Below are positions 22,605 to 31,303 of a stretch of 33,076 nucleotides of DNA, piece by piece (position 1 is the stretch's first letter; every line of letters begins with the position of its first letter). The notes under the pieces are model-generated. The model worked only from the letters and a program-made list of their open reading frames with translations. It made no database searches and was not told the DNA's origin. Source of the DNA: Verrucomicrobiales bacterium. Lineage in GTDB: Bacteria; Verrucomicrobiota; Verrucomicrobiia; Verrucomicrobiales; Verrucomicrobiaceae. The position numbers and the translations under genes were made by a program. The stretch spans positions 1 through 33,076 of the forward strand of contig JAGRPD010000105.1 in assembly GCA_020439875.1 (NCBI GenBank). Direction: 5' to 3'.

Positions 22605-23879
22605 TCAGCTCCAGGCGGCGAGCAGGCCGGCGGCTTTGTGCTGGGTTTCTTCGTATTCGAGGGTGGGATCCGAATCGGCGACGATGCCGGCTCCGGTGTG
22701 GAAGGTGAGGGTGGAACCGATGCGTACGGCGGTGCGGATGGCGATGTTCCAAAAACTCTCGCCACTGAAGGCGAAGCCGCCGATGGCTCCGGTGTAGAGG
22801 CCGCGGGGGTGAGGTTCGAGTTCGTGGATGATCTCGAGGGCGCGTTTTTTGGGAGCACCGGTGATGGAGCCGCCGGGAAAACAGGCGCGGAAGGCGGCGG
22901 CGTGAGAGATGCCGGGGGCGAGGTGTCCGGTGACGGTGGAGACGAGGTGGAAGACCTGGGGAAAAGTCTCGACCTGCCAGAGGGCGGGGACTTTGACACT
23001 GCCGAATTCGCAGACGCGGCCGAGGTCGTTGCGCTCGAGGTCGGTGATCATGAGCAGTTCCGCGCGTTCTTTTTCACTGGCGAGCAGTTCGGCGCGGGCG
23101 GCGGCGTCGCGGGTGGGATCGGTGGGAAAACGGGGGCGGGTGCCTTTGATAGGACGGGTTGTGACGCGGCGGCCGCTGAGGCGCAGGAAGAGTTCGGGCG
23201 AGGCGGAGAGGACGTGGCAGTCGGCCAGCTCGGCAAAGGCGGCGTGGGGGGCTGCGGAGGCGGCTCGGAGGCGGTGGTAGAGGTGGAGGCTGGAGACGTG
23301 AGGGGGGCAGGTGGCCGTCCAGGGGTAGGCGAGGTTGACTTGATAGATGTCTCCGGCGGCGATGTAGGCCTGGGCGCGGCGGACGCGGGAGATGAAGGCT
23401 TCGGCGTCGAGCTGTGGGGCAAAGCGCAGGGCCGGAGGTGGGGCGGCGGCGGCCAGCGGGGGGGGGGGGGGGGGGGCTTCGAGGGAGGAGGTGTGCCAGC
23501 GGGCGGTGGCGTGATCGTGGATCCAGACGGTGGGGTAGTGGCCGAGGACGAAGTGGCCGTCGAATCCGACCCAGCCGAAAAGTCCGGCGCTGGGTCGGGT
23601 GGGAGTGGCGGTGGTGGGCTGCTGGTGGCGGGCGAGGTGCTGCTCGACGCGATGCCAATCCGTGGCCATTTGACCGGTCAAAATCTCGGTGGGGGCTGCG
23701 GCGAGCAGGCTGAAGCCGGAGGCTGCGTCTCCGCTGTCGAGCCAGAAAAGTCCGCCCTGGGGCTGGAGGCGGGCGGCGAGATCGGCGGGGCTGAGCCGCC
23801 AGGGACTGGGGCGCAAGGCGGCGTCCGCCCCTGAAATCAAGGACGGCAGCGGAGATTCGAAGCAGGAGTCTTGAAGCAT
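22605..23879 (-). CDS. pabB: Aminodeoxychorismate synthase component I (PabB)
   Basis: PabB turns chorismate and ammonia into 4-amino-4-deoxychorismate for folate synthesis, usually with a glutaminase PabA that is not in this window. The ATG at 23879 gives 424 aa. The chorismate-binding domain has RPIKGTRPR, whose Lys marks PabB rather than TrpE (Ala there). It also has ASEKERAELLMITDLERNDLG, CFPGGSITGAPKKRA and YTGAIGGF. The less conserved N-terminal domain is joined through a Pro/Ala linker (about 135-150) encoded by a run of 19 C on the coding strand. The frame is intact at this run length. A GTG at 23885 is an alternative start. It diverges from the TPR gene by 50 bp and leads the operon with the repeat protein. 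Confidence -1.
   Translation of the reverse strand: MLQDSCFESPLPSLISGADAALRPSPWRLSPADLAARLQPQGGLFWLDSGDAASGFSLLAAAPTEILTGQMATDWHRVEQHLARHQQPTTATPTRPSAGLFGWVGFDGHFVLGHYPTVWIHDHATARWHTSSLEAPPPPPPLAAAAPPPALRFAPQLDAEAFISRVRRAQAYIAAGDIYQVNLAYPWTATCPPHVSSLHLYHRLRAASAAPHAAFAELADCHVLSASPELFLRLSGRRVTTRPIKGTRPRFPTDPTRDAAARAELLASEKERAELLMITDLERNDLGRVCEFGSVKVPALWQVETFPQVFHLVSTVTGHLAPGISHAAAFRACFPGGSITGAPKKRALEIIHELEPHPRGLYTGAIGGFAFSGESFWNIAIRTAVRIGSTLTFHTGAGIVADSDPTLEYEETQHKAAGLLAAWS
23458..23476 (-). repeat. 19-nt homopolymer (poly-C on the coding strand) inside pabB
   Basis: Nineteen consecutive G on the plus strand encode most of six prolines (residues 136-141) in the PabB linker. Runs of this length are prone to slippage in replication and to sequencing error. 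One base more or less would shift the frame ahead of the whole chorismate-binding domain; three bases would only change the number of prolines. Confidence -1.
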
Positions 23880-23929
23880 TGACACTCCGGTGGCCAGACC
23901 GTACCATACGCCACTCTTTGATCAACGCG

Positions 23930-25096
23930 ATGGCGCGCCCTACTTCACCAATCCTCGCTGCCGATACGGGGCGCGCCCAAGCGGCGGCCCTGGCGGTGCT
24001 GGCTGTCTTGGCGGGTTTGCAAGTGCTGCTGCTGGCGGGTAGCTGGTGGTTGGCGGCGCGGCGGGGTGGGGAAATGAAACCTGATCTGCAAGCGGACGGG
24101 GCGGGTGCGGGGGGCGCGGCGACCTCGGCGCTGGGGGCACCGCCGCAGCCGGGTCAGCTGGCGGGTGAGAGCAGCAGTCTCTCGACGCTCGCCTTTTCCA
24201 CCGGGACGGCGACGGCACCACCGATGCCGGGAGAATTGGCGGGGGATTCAGCGGGGCTGACCACGGCTCCGACGATGGCCGCTCCGCTCGGCGCAGTGCA
24301 GGCTCCCTCAGCGGGCACTGCCGCACGGCATCCTGAGCTGGAGGAGCTGTTGGACACGGTGCGGCAGCTGCGTCCTCTGGATGATACGGCGGGCATGCTG
24401 GCGGTGCTGCGGCGCTGCGAAGAATTGCAGCCGGGTGATCCGGAGGTGCAAAGCGAATTTGCTCTGACCTACGAGCAGATGGGGCTCAACGACAAGGCGG
24501 CGTTGTATTGGCGCAAGTTGGCGGAGGCGGGGCCGGCGGTGGCAGGGGATTTTTACGGCATGGCCGTGGGGCGACTCAAGGAGCTGGGTGAACTCGGACC
24601 GGCGGAGCAGCCTCAGGCGAGTACTCAGGCCTCGGTGCAGACGGCGGCGCAAGGGGATCAGGTGCTCAAAATCGGTCCCTGCGCGGTGGTGAAGGATCCG
24701 GCGGTGACGCAGGGTGAGCGGATCACGCTGAGGATCCCGATTCAGCGTCTGGTGGAGGGTTACATTGAGCCGACGGCGGTGAGTGTGGATGTGTTCTTTT
24801 ACGATCTGGTCAATGGCTCGAAGGTGGAGCCGACCCGCGCGGATCCACCGGTGAGCCGATGGGTGGCTGAGCCGGTGGATTGGTCAGGCCAGCCGGAGGA
24901 GGAGCCGCTGGACATGGTGTACTTTCTGCCGCCGATGTCTTCTCAGGAGGTCAAAGATCACGGTGAGAGGCAATTTTACGGCTATGTGGTGAAGCTTTAT
25001 TACCAGAACCGGCTGCAGGACACGGCAGCTGCCCCGCCGGATCTGGCGGGAGAAAAAGAAGCGCGCGCGGGGGCAGGGACAGCGCAGGCGAGGTGA
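23930..25096 (+). CDS. Single-pass membrane protein with TPR-like region
   Basis: The ATG at 23930 gives 388 aa; an earlier in-frame ATG at 23879 overlaps the pabB start. Residues about 15-38 form one membrane helix. A Gly/Ala/Thr-rich disordered linker follows, with a partly repeated motif (LAGESSSL / LAGDSAGL). Then comes a TPR-like helical region (EVQSEFALTYEQMGLNDKAALYWRKLAE) and a C-terminal beta-rich domain of about 150 residues, beginning VLKIGPCAVVKDP and containing VDVFFYDLVNGSKVEP. I do not recognise a named family. The next gene starts 3-18 nt after its stop, so the pair is an operon. It probably partners the pseudokinase/FGE-like fusion in the same membrane. Confidence -1.
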   Translation: MARPTSPILAADTGRAQAAALAVLAVLAGLQVLLLAGSWWLAARRGGEMKPDLQADGAGAGGAATSALGAPPQPGQLAGESSSLSTLAFSTGTATAPPMPGELAGDSAGLTTAPTMAAPLGAVQAPSAGTAARHPELEELLDTVRQLRPLDDTAGMLAVLRRCEELQPGDPEVQSEFALTYEQMGLNDKAALYWRKLAEAGPAVAGDFYGMAVGRLKELGELGPAEQPQASTQASVQTAAQGDQVLKIGPCAVVKDPAVTQGERITLRIPIQRLVEGYIEPTAVSVDVFFYDLVNGSKVEPTRADPPVSRWVAEPVDWSGQPEEEPLDMVYFLPPMSSQEVKDHGERQFYGYVVKLYYQNRLQDTAAAPPDLAGEKEARAGAGTAQAR

Positions 25097-25114
25097 GCGG
25101 TGTGGATGGCTGGA

Positions 25115-27082
25115 ATGAAGGCGATTTTGGTGGACTCCAATGAGGCGAAGCGGACCGAGCGGGTGCGGGCGCTGGAGGCGCGGGATTGGGAGGTGCATGC
25201 TTTTGGGGATCCGTTGGAGGCGGGCCGTTGGGTGGAGAGTGTGGAAGGAGCGGCGGCGGATTTGCTGGTGACGGAGGCGGTGTTTGACGATGGCATCACG
25301 GGATTTGAGCTGCGGGACGTGGTGGTGGATGCGTGGCCTGAGGTGCGGGTGATTTTCACGACGCGATTTGATTTGGCGGGGTTTGAGCAGTCTGTCGCGG
25401 GCTGGCCGGTGTTGGTGGATCAGCCGCCCTTTGCACCGGGTCAGTTGCTGGAGCAGATCAAGGCGGTGATGGCGGCACCCCCGCCTGCGGAAGCGCTGGG
25501 CGCGATGCGGGTGGTGGCCGAGGGGATGACGCTGGGGCGCTACCAGCTGCTGGAGCATGTGAGATCGGACGCGATGGCGGACACCTATCGTGCGGTGCAG
25601 ACGGACGTGGATCGGACGGTGGGTCTGGTGCTGCTCAAACCCAGACATCACGACAATGCGGAGATGGTGGAGCGGTTCCTGGCGCGGGAGAAAGTGAAGG
25701 CTGCCATCTCGCACCCGCGTGTCGCCCCTCTGTATGAAGCGGCAGATGTGGCGGGCCACTATTTTTACACCCGCGAGGTGCCACGCGGTCGGTCGCTGGA
25801 TGAGCTGGCAGCAGCAGGTGAGAGCCTGTCGGAGCGCGCGCTGGTGGAGCTGCTGTTTGGCGTGGCGGAGGTGATGAGCTGGGCAGCGGAGCATGAGTTT
25901 CATCATCGCGAGCTGACGAGTCGGGACATTTTCCTGGATGAAGACTTCCAGGCCAGCTTGGTCAATGTGTTCCGCCCCCATTCCGACGGGGTGGAGGTGC
26001 CGCAGCCGGACGATGTGCGCGCGCTGCTCACGCTGCTGCGCGGGCGGGCCAAGGCGGGCAAGGCCAATGGGTTGGTGCGTCAGTTGGCCAGTGAGACGCT
26101 GACGTGGCCGGAGCTTTTGGAGGAAATGTCCGACATGCGCAGCTCGATGCGGCGCCACAGTGTGCGGCAGCGCATGGAGCAGGGGCAGGGGGAGCAAGCG
26201 GCAGGTGGCCTTTTGCCGTGGTGGGGCTGGCTCGTCCTGGTGGCGATCATCGCCGTGGTGGCGGGGCTGGGAGCGCTCACGGGATCCGGTGGGAAGTCGC
26301 CCGGAGCCGCCGGGCGCGAGGAAATGGTTCGCATTCCCGCCGGAACGTTCCTTTATCAAAAAGGCGAGAGACGCTCCCTGCCGGATTTTTGGATCAGCCG
26401 GACGGAGGTGACCATCGGGCAATATCAGCGCTTTCTCGATGAAGGGCGCGGGGGCAATGGCGGAGCCTGGGATCACTCCGAACAGCCGACATCCAAGACC
26501 AGTCACGAGCCAGATGGCTGGGCAGAGATGCTGGCGGCGGCTCGGGCGGGGGCGCGGGTCAATGGCGAAGTGGTGACGTTGGAGACGCCGGTGACGAAAG
26601 TGGACTGGTGGGATGCGTACGCCTACGCCCGCTGGAGGGGGCATCGCCTGCCGACGGAGGAGGAGTGGGAAAAAGCGGCGCGCGGGACGCGTGGGCTGCC
26701 TTTTCCCTGGGGGAAAAAGCCGGACCGTCATGCGGCGAACCTGGGTCTGGATTATGATCCAAATGGCACGGAAGGTGGCGTGCTGGACGGATACAACCTT
26801 TGGGCTCCCACCGATCGGGAATCGGCGGATGCCAGCGAGTATGGCATCGTCGATCTGGCGGGCAATGTGCAGGAGTGGACGGCGTCTGAATCCGGTGGGT
26901 TGGCCTGGTCGGCGCATCCCGAATATCCTGATAAACGTGTGCCCGTGGCTCGGGGCGGTCACTTTGCGCTTCCTAGCGATGTGGATCTTCTGACCACTCG
27001 GTTTTTTGCCGCAGGACCGGAGGAATCCAACATCGCTCGCGGCTTCCGCACGGCAGCCGACGCGCCGCCGGAGGAGGAGTGA
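25115..27082 (+). CDS. Pseudo-receiver / pseudokinase / membrane / FGE-sulfatase-like fusion protein
   Basis: The product is 655 aa from ATG 25115 (GTG 25100 and ATG 25106 are alternatives). Residues 1-120 form a receiver-like domain whose phosphoacceptor is Glu54 instead of Asp and whose conserved Lys position reads Gln103. Residues 139-345 look like a Ser/Thr kinase. Lys175 is kept, but the HRD motif is HRE (264-266), the Gly loop is degenerate and no DFG is found. A basic linker leads to a membrane helix (about 367-389). The outer part, 403-645, is a formylglycine-generating-enzyme-like fold: MVRIPAGTF, RLPTEEEWEKAARG, YGIVDLAGNVQEW, VARGGHF, ARGFR. It has no cysteine anywhere, so it cannot be a classical cysteine-dependent FGE. 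Most likely it is a signalling or scaffold protein. It is in an operon with the preceding TPR membrane protein. Confidence -1.
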   Translation: MKAILVDSNEAKRTERVRALEARDWEVHAFGDPLEAGRWVESVEGAAADLLVTEAVFDDGITGFELRDVVVDAWPEVRVIFTTRFDLAGFEQSVAGWPVLVDQPPFAPGQLLEQIKAVMAAPPPAEALGAMRVVAEGMTLGRYQLLEHVRSDAMADTYRAVQTDVDRTVGLVLLKPRHHDNAEMVERFLAREKVKAAISHPRVAPLYEAADVAGHYFYTREVPRGRSLDELAAAGESLSERALVELLFGVAEVMSWAAEHEFHHRELTSRDIFLDEDFQASLVNVFRPHSDGVEVPQPDDVRALLTLLRGRAKAGKANGLVRQLASETLTWPELLEEMSDMRSSMRRHSVRQRMEQGQGEQAAGGLLPWWGWLVLVAIIAVVAGLGALTGSGGKSPGAAGREEMVRIPAGTFLYQKGERRSLPDFWISRTEVTIGQYQRFLDEGRGGNGGAWDHSEQPTSKTSHEPDGWAEMLAAARAGARVNGEVVTLETPVTKVDWWDAYAYARWRGHRLPTEEEWEKAARGTRGLPFPWGKKPDRHAANLGLDYDPNGTEGGVLDGYNLWAPTDRESADASEYGIVDLAGNVQEWTASESGGLAWSAHPEYPDKRVPVARGGHFALPSDVDLLTTRFFAAGPEESNIARGFRTAADAPPEEE

Positions 27083-29516: not shown

Positions 29517-29753
29517 ATGAGTGCTCCGGATGAAGGTCTCACTGACCGCCTGCAGCAGGCGGAAAAAATCGCAGCTCAACCTCAGCAATACAAGGTGTGT
29601 GAGGGCTGCGGCTCCATCGTCGTGGCCCGTGCCGTGACCTGCCCGAGCTGCCATGCGTACCGCTTCGATGCGCAGCCTGAGCGCGTGGTGAGTCAGGCAC
29701 GGCTGTTGGCTCTGAAAAATCCAGTTTCCGTCACCTCCTCCGACCTCGACTGA
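29517..29753 (+). CDS. Small zinc-ribbon protein
   Basis: The product is 78 aa from the ATG at 29517; a TTG at 29505 is also in frame. Four cysteines in two CxxC knuckles (Cys28, Cys31, Cys42, Cys45; CEGCG and CPSCH) make a zinc ribbon, with a helical N-terminus and a short tail. Small ribbons of this kind bind nucleic acid or protein; no specific role can be read. The stop overlaps the sulfatase start by one base (TGATG, 29751-29755), so translation is coupled. That is curious, because this protein is cytoplasmic and the sulfatase is secreted. Confidence -1.
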   Translation: MSAPDEGLTDRLQQAEKIAAQPQQYKVCEGCGSIVVARAVTCPSCHAYRFDAQPERVVSQARLLALKNPVSVTSSDLD

Positions 29754-31303
29754 TGCGCGCGATCGCAGCGGCAGCCGTCGGCCTGATGATGGCGGGGTGG
29801 CTGGTACCTCACTCCGCTCCCGCTCGAGACATCGTCTGGATCTTGGTGGACGACCTGCGGCCCCTGCTCGGCTGCTACGGAGAAAAAAACGCCCACACAC
29901 CGAACCTCGATCGCCTAGCGCAGGAAGGCGTGCGGTTTGAGCGAGCCTACTGTCAGGCGGCCAAATGCGGCCCTTCCCGCATCTCCATGCTCAGCGGACT
30001 GCGACCTGAAACGACGCGGGTTTGGTCGCACAAGGAAGCGGACTGGCAGCGCTTTCGGCAGCGTCAGGCCGATTGGAAAAGCCTGCCTCAGGCTCTGCGG
30101 GCAGCGGGTTGGACGACGCGCGCCTTTGGCAAGGTCTCTCACGATGGCTGGGTGGATGACGCCGACTGGAGCCTACCTGCGGAGCCGGGTCGGGAAGGGG
30201 AGATGCTAGAAATCGTGGATGAGGCAGCCCTCAAAAACGTGCCCTACGCGGAGCGTGCGCAGGTGCCCACCCTCATCGCAGACCGCAAAAAATGTCCCGC
30301 CATCCAAGCCGCCGACGTTCCGGATGATGCCTTGTTTGCCGGGCGCATGACCCACCGGGTGCGGGAGGTCTTGCAGCAGGCGGGGCCCGAGCCGCACTTT
30401 TTGGCGATTGGTTACCGGCGTCCGCATCTGCCGATGGTGGCCCCCTCGAAGTACTTTGATTTGCATCCCGCAGAGCAGCAAATCCTGCCATCCAACCGCC
30501 AACCACCGAAGGGTGCGCCGTGGTTCGCCTGGTTCAATAGCGACGGTTATCAAGGCATGATCCGTCAATTGAAGGTGCCCGTGGTATCGCCCCCGACCGA
30601 TGCGGCGGAGGCCATGGAATGGAATGGATTTGAACTGCGCAGCTACCTCGGTGTGCCCACCCATGGTCCGATCCCCGACGATCGCCAGCGGGAGATTTGG
30701 CAGGCTTATCGCGCCTGCATCAGCTACGTGGATGCCCAGATCGGCCTATTGTTGCAGGCCCTGCGGCAGCATCCGCGCTGGCGAGATGCGGCCGTGGTGG
30801 TGACGTCGGATCACGGCTGGCATCTCGGCGATCAGACCGCTTGGACGAAGATGACCAACTACGAGGTAGCCACTCGGGTGCCGCTGCTGATCCATGTTCC
30901 AGGAGTGACGCCTGCGGGCGCGGTGATCCGGCAGCCGGTGGAATTGCTGGATCTGGCCCCGACCTTTCTGGACTGCGCCGGACTGCCCATTCCCAAAGCG
31001 CTCGAAGGGCACAGCCTGCTGCCACTGCTACAAAACCCCGACACCACCGATGCCGACGCCGTCGCCTGCTCCAGCTTCCCGCGGTTCCAAGATCTCATGG
31101 GCCAAGCCGCGCGGGACGCGCGCTATCGATACGTACGTTGGTTAGATGCCAGCACGGGCCGGCTTCGCGGGGAAGAACTCTACGATCATGAGGTCGATCC
31201 CGGTGAAACCGTGAATCGCGCCCCTCAGCATCCCGAAATTTGCCAGCGTCTCGCCACCCGGTTGGACCAGGTGATGAAGCGCACTGAGCCGCAAAAGCCG
31301 TAG
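29753..31303 (+). CDS. Secreted sulfatase, iduronate-2-sulfatase-like
   Basis: The product is 516 aa with a signal peptide (residues 1-24, ending SAPARD). The N-terminal metal site is LVDDLRPLLGCYG. The sulfatase signature CGPSR (Cys72-Arg76) is followed by SMLSGLRPETTR, as in iduronate-2-sulfatases; Cys72 must be oxidised to formylglycine for activity. Later motifs are FLAIGYRRPHLPMVAPSKYFDL, VVVTSDHGWHLGDQTAWTKM and EVATRVPLLIHVPG. It would remove sulfate esters from sulfated polysaccharides in the periplasm. The maturing enzyme is probably elsewhere in the genome, since the FGE-like domain at 26300-27050 has no cysteine. The zinc-ribbon gene overlaps its start by 1 nt. Confidence -1.
   Translation: MRAIAAAAVGLMMAGWLVPHSAPARDIVWILVDDLRPLLGCYGEKNAHTPNLDRLAQEGVRFERAYCQAAKCGPSRISMLSGLRPETTRVWSHKEADWQRFRQRQADWKSLPQALRAAGWTTRAFGKVSHDGWVDDADWSLPAEPGREGEMLEIVDEAALKNVPYAERAQVPTLIADRKKCPAIQAADVPDDALFAGRMTHRVREVLQQAGPEPHFLAIGYRRPHLPMVAPSKYFDLHPAEQQILPSNRQPPKGAPWFAWFNSDGYQGMIRQLKVPVVSPPTDAAEAMEWNGFELRSYLGVPTHGPIPDDRQREIWQAYRACISYVDAQIGLLLQALRQHPRWRDAAVVVTSDHGWHLGDQTAWTKMTNYEVATRVPLLIHVPGVTPAGAVIRQPVELLDLAPTFLDCAGLPIPKALEGHSLLPLLQNPDTTDADAVACSSFPRFQDLMGQAARDARYRYVRWLDASTGRLRGEELYDHEVDPGETVNRAPQHPEICQRLATRLDQVMKRTEPQKP

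Follow-up and report, generated by a model that had tools for sequence, protein, structure and literature searches.

Gene content and architecture of the locus

The stretch of DNA analysed here (the window, 33,076 nt) comes from a Verrucomicrobiales bacterium of the family Verrucomicrobiaceae and corresponds to positions 1-33,076 of the forward strand of contig JAGRPD010000105.1 in assembly GCA_020439875.1. The following features were identified around the gene of interest:

22605-23885, minus strand: divergent gene for a chorismate-binding enzyme, syntenic across much of the order; it marks the locus and no functional link is claimed
23879-25096, plus strand: partner gene, 405 aa, coding for a TM helix, a Pro-rich linker, TPR repeats (aa 152-235 of the model) and an Ig-like beta domain (about aa 262-391); from a structure model and adjacency
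25115-27082, plus strand: pseudo-receiver/pseudokinase/TM/FGE-like fusion, 655 aa; from the open frame, Pfam, ortholog alignment, AlphaFold2 and structure matches
25115-25474, plus strand: pseudo-receiver (aa 1-120), with D7 kept, Asp replaced by Glu at 54, R84 invariant and no receiver Lys in the window's family
25523-26149, plus strand: pseudokinase (aa 137-345), with Gly-loop, VAIK Lys, alphaC Glu, HRD and DFG all degraded and a short activation segment
26219-26278, plus strand: single TM helix (aa 369-388); from AlphaFold2 and a comparison of flanking charges in orthologs
26315-27064, plus strand: Cys-free domain of FGE/SUMF2 (C-type-lectin-like) fold (aa 401-650); from Pfam, a structure match and a conserved motif

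A preliminary description of this gene had proposed a fusion of receiver, kinase, membrane helix and FGE-like (formylglycine-generating enzyme-like) parts, and all four were recovered by Pfam, AlphaFold2 and structure matches in one open frame whose translation, as had also been claimed, contains no cysteine at all. Pfam detected FGE-sulfatase at residues 402-647 (3.2e-39) and a partial kinase that passes its cut-off (PK_Tyr_Ser-Thr, 7e-7), together with a sub-threshold Response_reg match (0.11). The AlphaFold2 model, built on an alignment of 35 orthologs, reached a pLDDT of 87.6 with a pTM of 0.47, so that the domain folds are reliable but the packing between them is not. It shows a receiver-like fold, a bilobal kinase, the TM helix and an FGE fold, in this order and at the residue ranges listed above, with a long helix at residues 331-358. 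In 61 of 78 orthologs positive charge is greater on the N-side of the TM helix, and following the positive-inside rule the FGE-like domain is predicted to lie outside the cytoplasm. The C-terminal region was conserved across 50 aligned orthologs, a result that argues against a variable protein of a diversity-generating retroelement, in which this region would be hypervariable. An antisense open frame of 692 aa (24884-26962, minus strand) was considered spurious, a by-product of the GC-rich sequence, homology favouring the plus frame.

A kinase fold that lost its catalytic residues early

In structure searches the kinase part matched PknA and PknB with Z scores of 18-19 over 203-213 residues at 16-20% identity which, together with the Pfam match, identifies a protein-kinase fold. 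However, when compared with active kinases of this kind, the window protein lacks the VAIK lysine, the HRD and DFG aspartates and the Gly-rich loop. The replacement of HRD by HRE (H264-R265-E266) and the absence of DFG (N284-V285-F286) had been read correctly in the preliminary description; in addition, the catalytic Asn is replaced by D271, and the C-lobe is also shortened, with about 12 residues between N284 and the next helix. Lys175, which had been taken as the catalytic lysine, instead sits three residues past the VAIK position, which corresponds to Val172 when aligned with two other class members (L103, VAMK, and L141, VAIK). With V172 at the lysine position and Arg191 at that of the alphaC-Glu, the kinase is deader than had been claimed.

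Within the window's family (35 orthologs) V172, R265, D271 and N284 are invariant, the alphaC-Glu position is occupied by Arg or His (R191 in 34/35) and the Gly-loop is gone; N284 is also kept by the 15 orthologs from the order's other families, that is, by 50/50 in the order. Furthermore, the HRD and DFG aspartates are missing from all 94 orthologs (35 from the family, 15 from the rest of the order and 44 class-wide), which places the death of the kinase before the diversification of the class. Some class members (L103, L141, L143, L149 and L150) still retain the Gly-loop or the VAIK lysine, and L103 (family f42) has both, without HRD or DFG. With its fold conserved and its catalytic motifs lost family-wide, the domain is a bacterial pseudokinase.

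A pseudo-receiver that degenerates separately in different lineages

Alignment and the AlphaFold2 model place Glu54 at the end of beta3, the phosphoacceptor position, in agreement with the Asp-to-Glu change proposed previously. D7, E54 and R84 are invariant in the window's family (35/35), and the features of a phosphorylatable receiver are lacking, since the phosphoacceptor is Glu54, D7 stands alone for the acidic pair and the Lys is lost. Glu also occupies this position in families f9, f18, f21 and f36. By contrast, the L103 protein has all receiver residues (acidic pair, phosphoacceptor Asp, Thr/Ser and Lys) in a domain detected by Pfam at 5.9e-17 and followed by DUF4388/PATAN. Outside the window's family the receiver is lost or eroded, and 0 of its 120 columns are at least 95% invariant across the order. 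Judging from these alignments, the receiver is degenerating separately in different lineages of the class and is canonical in at least one member, L103.

Asp-to-Glu pseudo-receivers are a recognised class, including plant PRRs, fungal Rim15p and bacterial PsRs, in which Glu is a common replacement that can mimic phosphorylation, without necessarily being what makes the protein active (PMC12632262). Unlike these proteins, the fusion has also lost the receiver Lys and the linked module is a pseudokinase rather than a DNA-binding domain. One possibility is that Glu54 fixes the receiver in a single, active-like conformation.

The composition of the gene varies among families. In f14 the receiver is encoded together with DUF4388 as a protein of its own; the kinase-FGE protein of f10 has no receiver, and a receiver-bearing gene adjoins it in two loci (L150 1313-3736, a hybrid histidine kinase, and L152 3427-5814); in f2, probably Akkermansia, the fusion also lacks the receiver, and f12, f19 and f31 keep the partner gene with the fusion gene absent. 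These absences indicate that not every domain is needed. Stand-alone pseudo-receivers with DUF4388/PATAN, without kinase or FGE domain, lie beside the partner gene in L105 (6848-7537) and L106 (5409-6452), and L148 (4085-9904) carries a tandem pair of fusion genes.

An ordinary cysteine-free FGE fold

In structure searches the C-terminal domain gave Z scores of 23-25 with human FGE/SUMF2 and EgtB (human FGE: Z 23, 2.7 A, about 220 residues, 31% identity), and its best PDB match by sequence was SUMF2, a Cys-free paralogue. The FGE fold is thus present without the active-site pair, there being no Cys at either catalytic position. Across the order, 41 of its 250 columns are at least 95% invariant, and a motif, QPxxKxxHxPxxW, is found at residues 457-469. 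This domain had been described as having lost its chemistry; however, a C-x4-C pair is likewise absent from every FGE-fold domain that could be read elsewhere in the genome (12 hits, 3 of them unreadable by motif), so the absence of Cys is not special and the Cys-free sort appears ordinary. The same fold is found in SUMF2, GldK/PorK and PvdO, non-FGE members of the FGE-sulfatase superfamily of which SUMF2 is likewise Cys-free, although none of them carries a fused pseudokinase or receiver. The idea that three domains lost their chemistry jointly does not hold either, given the early death of the kinase, the canonical receiver of L103 and an FGE-like part of an ordinary kind. A sulfatase gene with a C-G-P-S-R motif, whose product would need a maturase, lies 2.7 kb downstream of the fusion gene (29753-31303, plus strand).

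Distribution and selection

Of 57 related genomes, all except G003, G036 and G045 gave a strong match to the fusion; the matches in these three were weak, although G036 has an ortholog by profile (L129). Orthologs occur throughout the class Verrucomicrobiae, and a phylum-wide scan at E 1e-40 gave matches in 17 of 145 sampled genomes, all within the class and none outside it. In close pairs, dN/dS was 0.05-0.18 for the gene as a whole and 0.017-0.095 for the pseudokinase, the lowest of the domains in most pairs (Nei-Gojobori estimates, the most diverged pair being near saturation). These values and the conservation rule out a decaying gene. Glu54, Lys175 and Glu266 had been proposed as the residues to check, variation as in a decaying gene counting against a selected role. 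Such variation is indeed seen at position 175 (K, R or D) and at position 266 (in the 35 family members, E in 3, R in 9, S in 9 and M in 9), but not at Glu54 nor in the gene as a whole.

A near-constant partner gene

In 72 of 78 loci, among them 40/40 in the order, the partner gene immediately precedes the fusion gene and has the same orientation; adjacency is biased in the part of the class set fetched around the partner gene (L103-L136), whereas the order set and L137-L165, collected around the fusion gene, do not carry this bias. This gene order strongly backs the earlier suggestion that the neighbouring TPR membrane protein is the partner. Its named relatives are mostly from Verrucomicrobiaceae (Prosthecobacter, Brevifollis) and also from Spartobacteria and Chthoniobacteraceae. 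Structure searches with the partner returned generic TPR (LpoP, Z 12.4) and Ig-like (Z about 7) matches that were not used as evidence of function. In families f8 and f10 its position is taken by an FHA-TM protein (Pfam FHA, 1e-14 to 1e-16), found instead of the TPR partner beside the kinase-FGE gene in L141, L143, L144, L146, L148-L152, L155, L163 and L164. Where its frame is long enough, the C-terminal domain of the FHA-TM protein is homologous to the beta domain of the TPR partner. FHA domains act in the cytoplasm, which would put the beta/TPR side of the partner in the periplasm, on the same side as the FGE-like domain; the positive-inside test of the partner (35 vs 20, with 22 ties) lends weak support to this topology. 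Only in an Akkermansia-like genus (L050, L123, L124, L128, L130 and L165) does a conserved protein of 270-339 aa lie upstream of the partner.

A proposed non-catalytic core of an envelope complex

Taking together the predicted folds, the dead motifs, the selection on the gene and the gene pairing, we propose that the fusion spans the membrane as the non-catalytic core of an envelope complex, conserved among verrucomicrobial bacteria, with its upstream partner and periplasmic clients, a reading to which we assign a probability of roughly 60%. In this complex, whose physical existence and topology we infer, the cytoplasmic pseudo-receiver and pseudokinase would serve as docking and conformational modules, and the FGE-fold domain outside the cell would be a binding domain rather than a formylglycine-generating enzyme. 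The single-TM TPR/Ig-like protein, or the FHA-TM protein in other families, would be its near-obligate partner, and both together would pass or anchor a cytoplasmic signal to the clients. Class-wide conservation, very low dN/dS, family-invariant replacements and the almost invariant gene partner give good support to a role that is under selection and non-catalytic, as a scaffold or transmitter, in line with the scaffolding or sensing role under selection advanced in the preliminary description.

The likeliest clients would be a secreted beta-sandwich protein and a cell-wall amidase, whose genes come next in an apparently ancestral operon. The beta-sandwich gene lies downstream of the fusion in 36 of 75 loci, and an Amidase_3 gene is found there in about ten, spread over more than one order. 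In the window genome neither is beside the fusion gene, the beta-sandwich gene being on another contig (L169, G000:C594:2669-3550), and this makes the cell-wall link weaker than the partner link; the connection to the amidase is suggestive only. A more specific form of the envelope-core explanation would make the fusion a regulator of the amidase, its pseudo-domains gating the FGE/TPR-Ig complex, which would activate Amidase_3 via the secreted beta protein in a manner resembling FtsEX-EnvC-AmiA/B. The order partner - fusion - beta protein - Amidase_3 in L037, L039, L044, L046-L049 and L103, and partner - receiver gene - beta protein - amidase in L105 and L106, speak for this; on the other hand, the linkage is absent from the window's family and most others and may reflect an old housekeeping neighbourhood, as suggested by the Nnr gene that also follows in many loci. 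We consider this form possible, at perhaps one chance in a few.

It is rather unlikely that the receiver and kinase are relics and that only the FGE-like domain matters, as a membrane-anchored periplasmic domain binding a ligand or glycan. Such a view would fit the concentration of invariant columns in the FGE-like part and the loss or erosion of the receiver elsewhere, but it is difficult to reconcile with a pseudokinase whose N-lobe is conserved and whose dN/dS is the lowest in most close pairs, and with an invariant Glu54. We regard it as improbable that nucleotide binding survives in the pseudokinase, or that the domain has taken on a non-kinase chemistry in the way of SelO or SidJ; this kind of repurposing is known (PMC12599244) and a few class members keep parts of the ATP site, whereas the window's family has Val for the VAIK lysine, Arg or His for the alphaC-Glu and no Gly-loop, and the DFG aspartate occurs in no ortholog. 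Finally, despite its FGE fold and its proximity to the sulfatase gene, a working formylglycine-generating enzyme for that sulfatase can be rejected, since the fusion has no cysteine and the sulfatase is not syntenic in relatives.

Relation to known systems and significance

The preliminary description could not match the protein to a described system, and this remains fair as regards the full architecture, although EssB/YukC, MviN-FhaA and TagR-PpkA-Fha are close analogues in function. EssB/YukC of type VII secretion b is a transmembrane pseudokinase with a scaffold role, whose cytoplasmic pseudokinase, like the one reported here, has none of the three motifs, a degraded Gly-loop, a shortened activation loop and one TM helix, a likeness that rests on the published description (PMC12599244). 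Unlike the fusion, it has no receiver or FGE fold, and no secretion genes were seen at the locus. Mycobacterial MviN-FhaA (ActPs3) pairs a membrane pseudokinase with an FHA partner in cell-wall metabolism (PMC12599244), and in f8 and f10 the pseudokinase gene too has an FHA-TM partner. However, peptidoglycan synthesis cannot proceed without MviN, which also has a carbohydrate-binding domain, and the partner in the window's order, unlike FhaA, has no FHA domain. TagR is an FGE-like protein. In type VI secretion, the threonine phosphorylation pathway TagQRST-PpkA-Fha1 has a kinase that is controlled from the periplasm via TagR and whose output is sensed by an FHA protein (PMC10482370); PpkA, however, is an active kinase, whereas here the kinase is dead and fused to the FGE fold, and no type VI genes were found at the locus.

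A 2025 review covers seven families of bacterial pseudokinases (ActPs1-3, GLW, CP1, DYD and DLHK) and describes no receiver- or FGE-linked family and none from Verrucomicrobia (PMC12599244). By comparison with the published descriptions the fusion appears to lie outside these families, and within the open literature searched its own family appears to be undescribed.

The fusion occurs in many sampled families of the class, probably also in the gut genus Akkermansia, and does so beside a steady partner, which points to a likely core function in the envelope. More tentatively still than the amidase regulation considered above, this could be a class-wide Verrucomicrobiae envelope machine in which a receiver locked by its Glu and a dead kinase on the inner side, an FGE/lectin fold outside and an FHA/TPR partner control a peptidoglycan amidase, conformational signalling replacing catalysis. 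Bacterial pseudokinases are largely uncharacterised, and the series of lineages found here, from a canonical receiver and a near-complete ATP site to dead domains, is well suited to testing how signalling shifts from phosphorylation to scaffolding.
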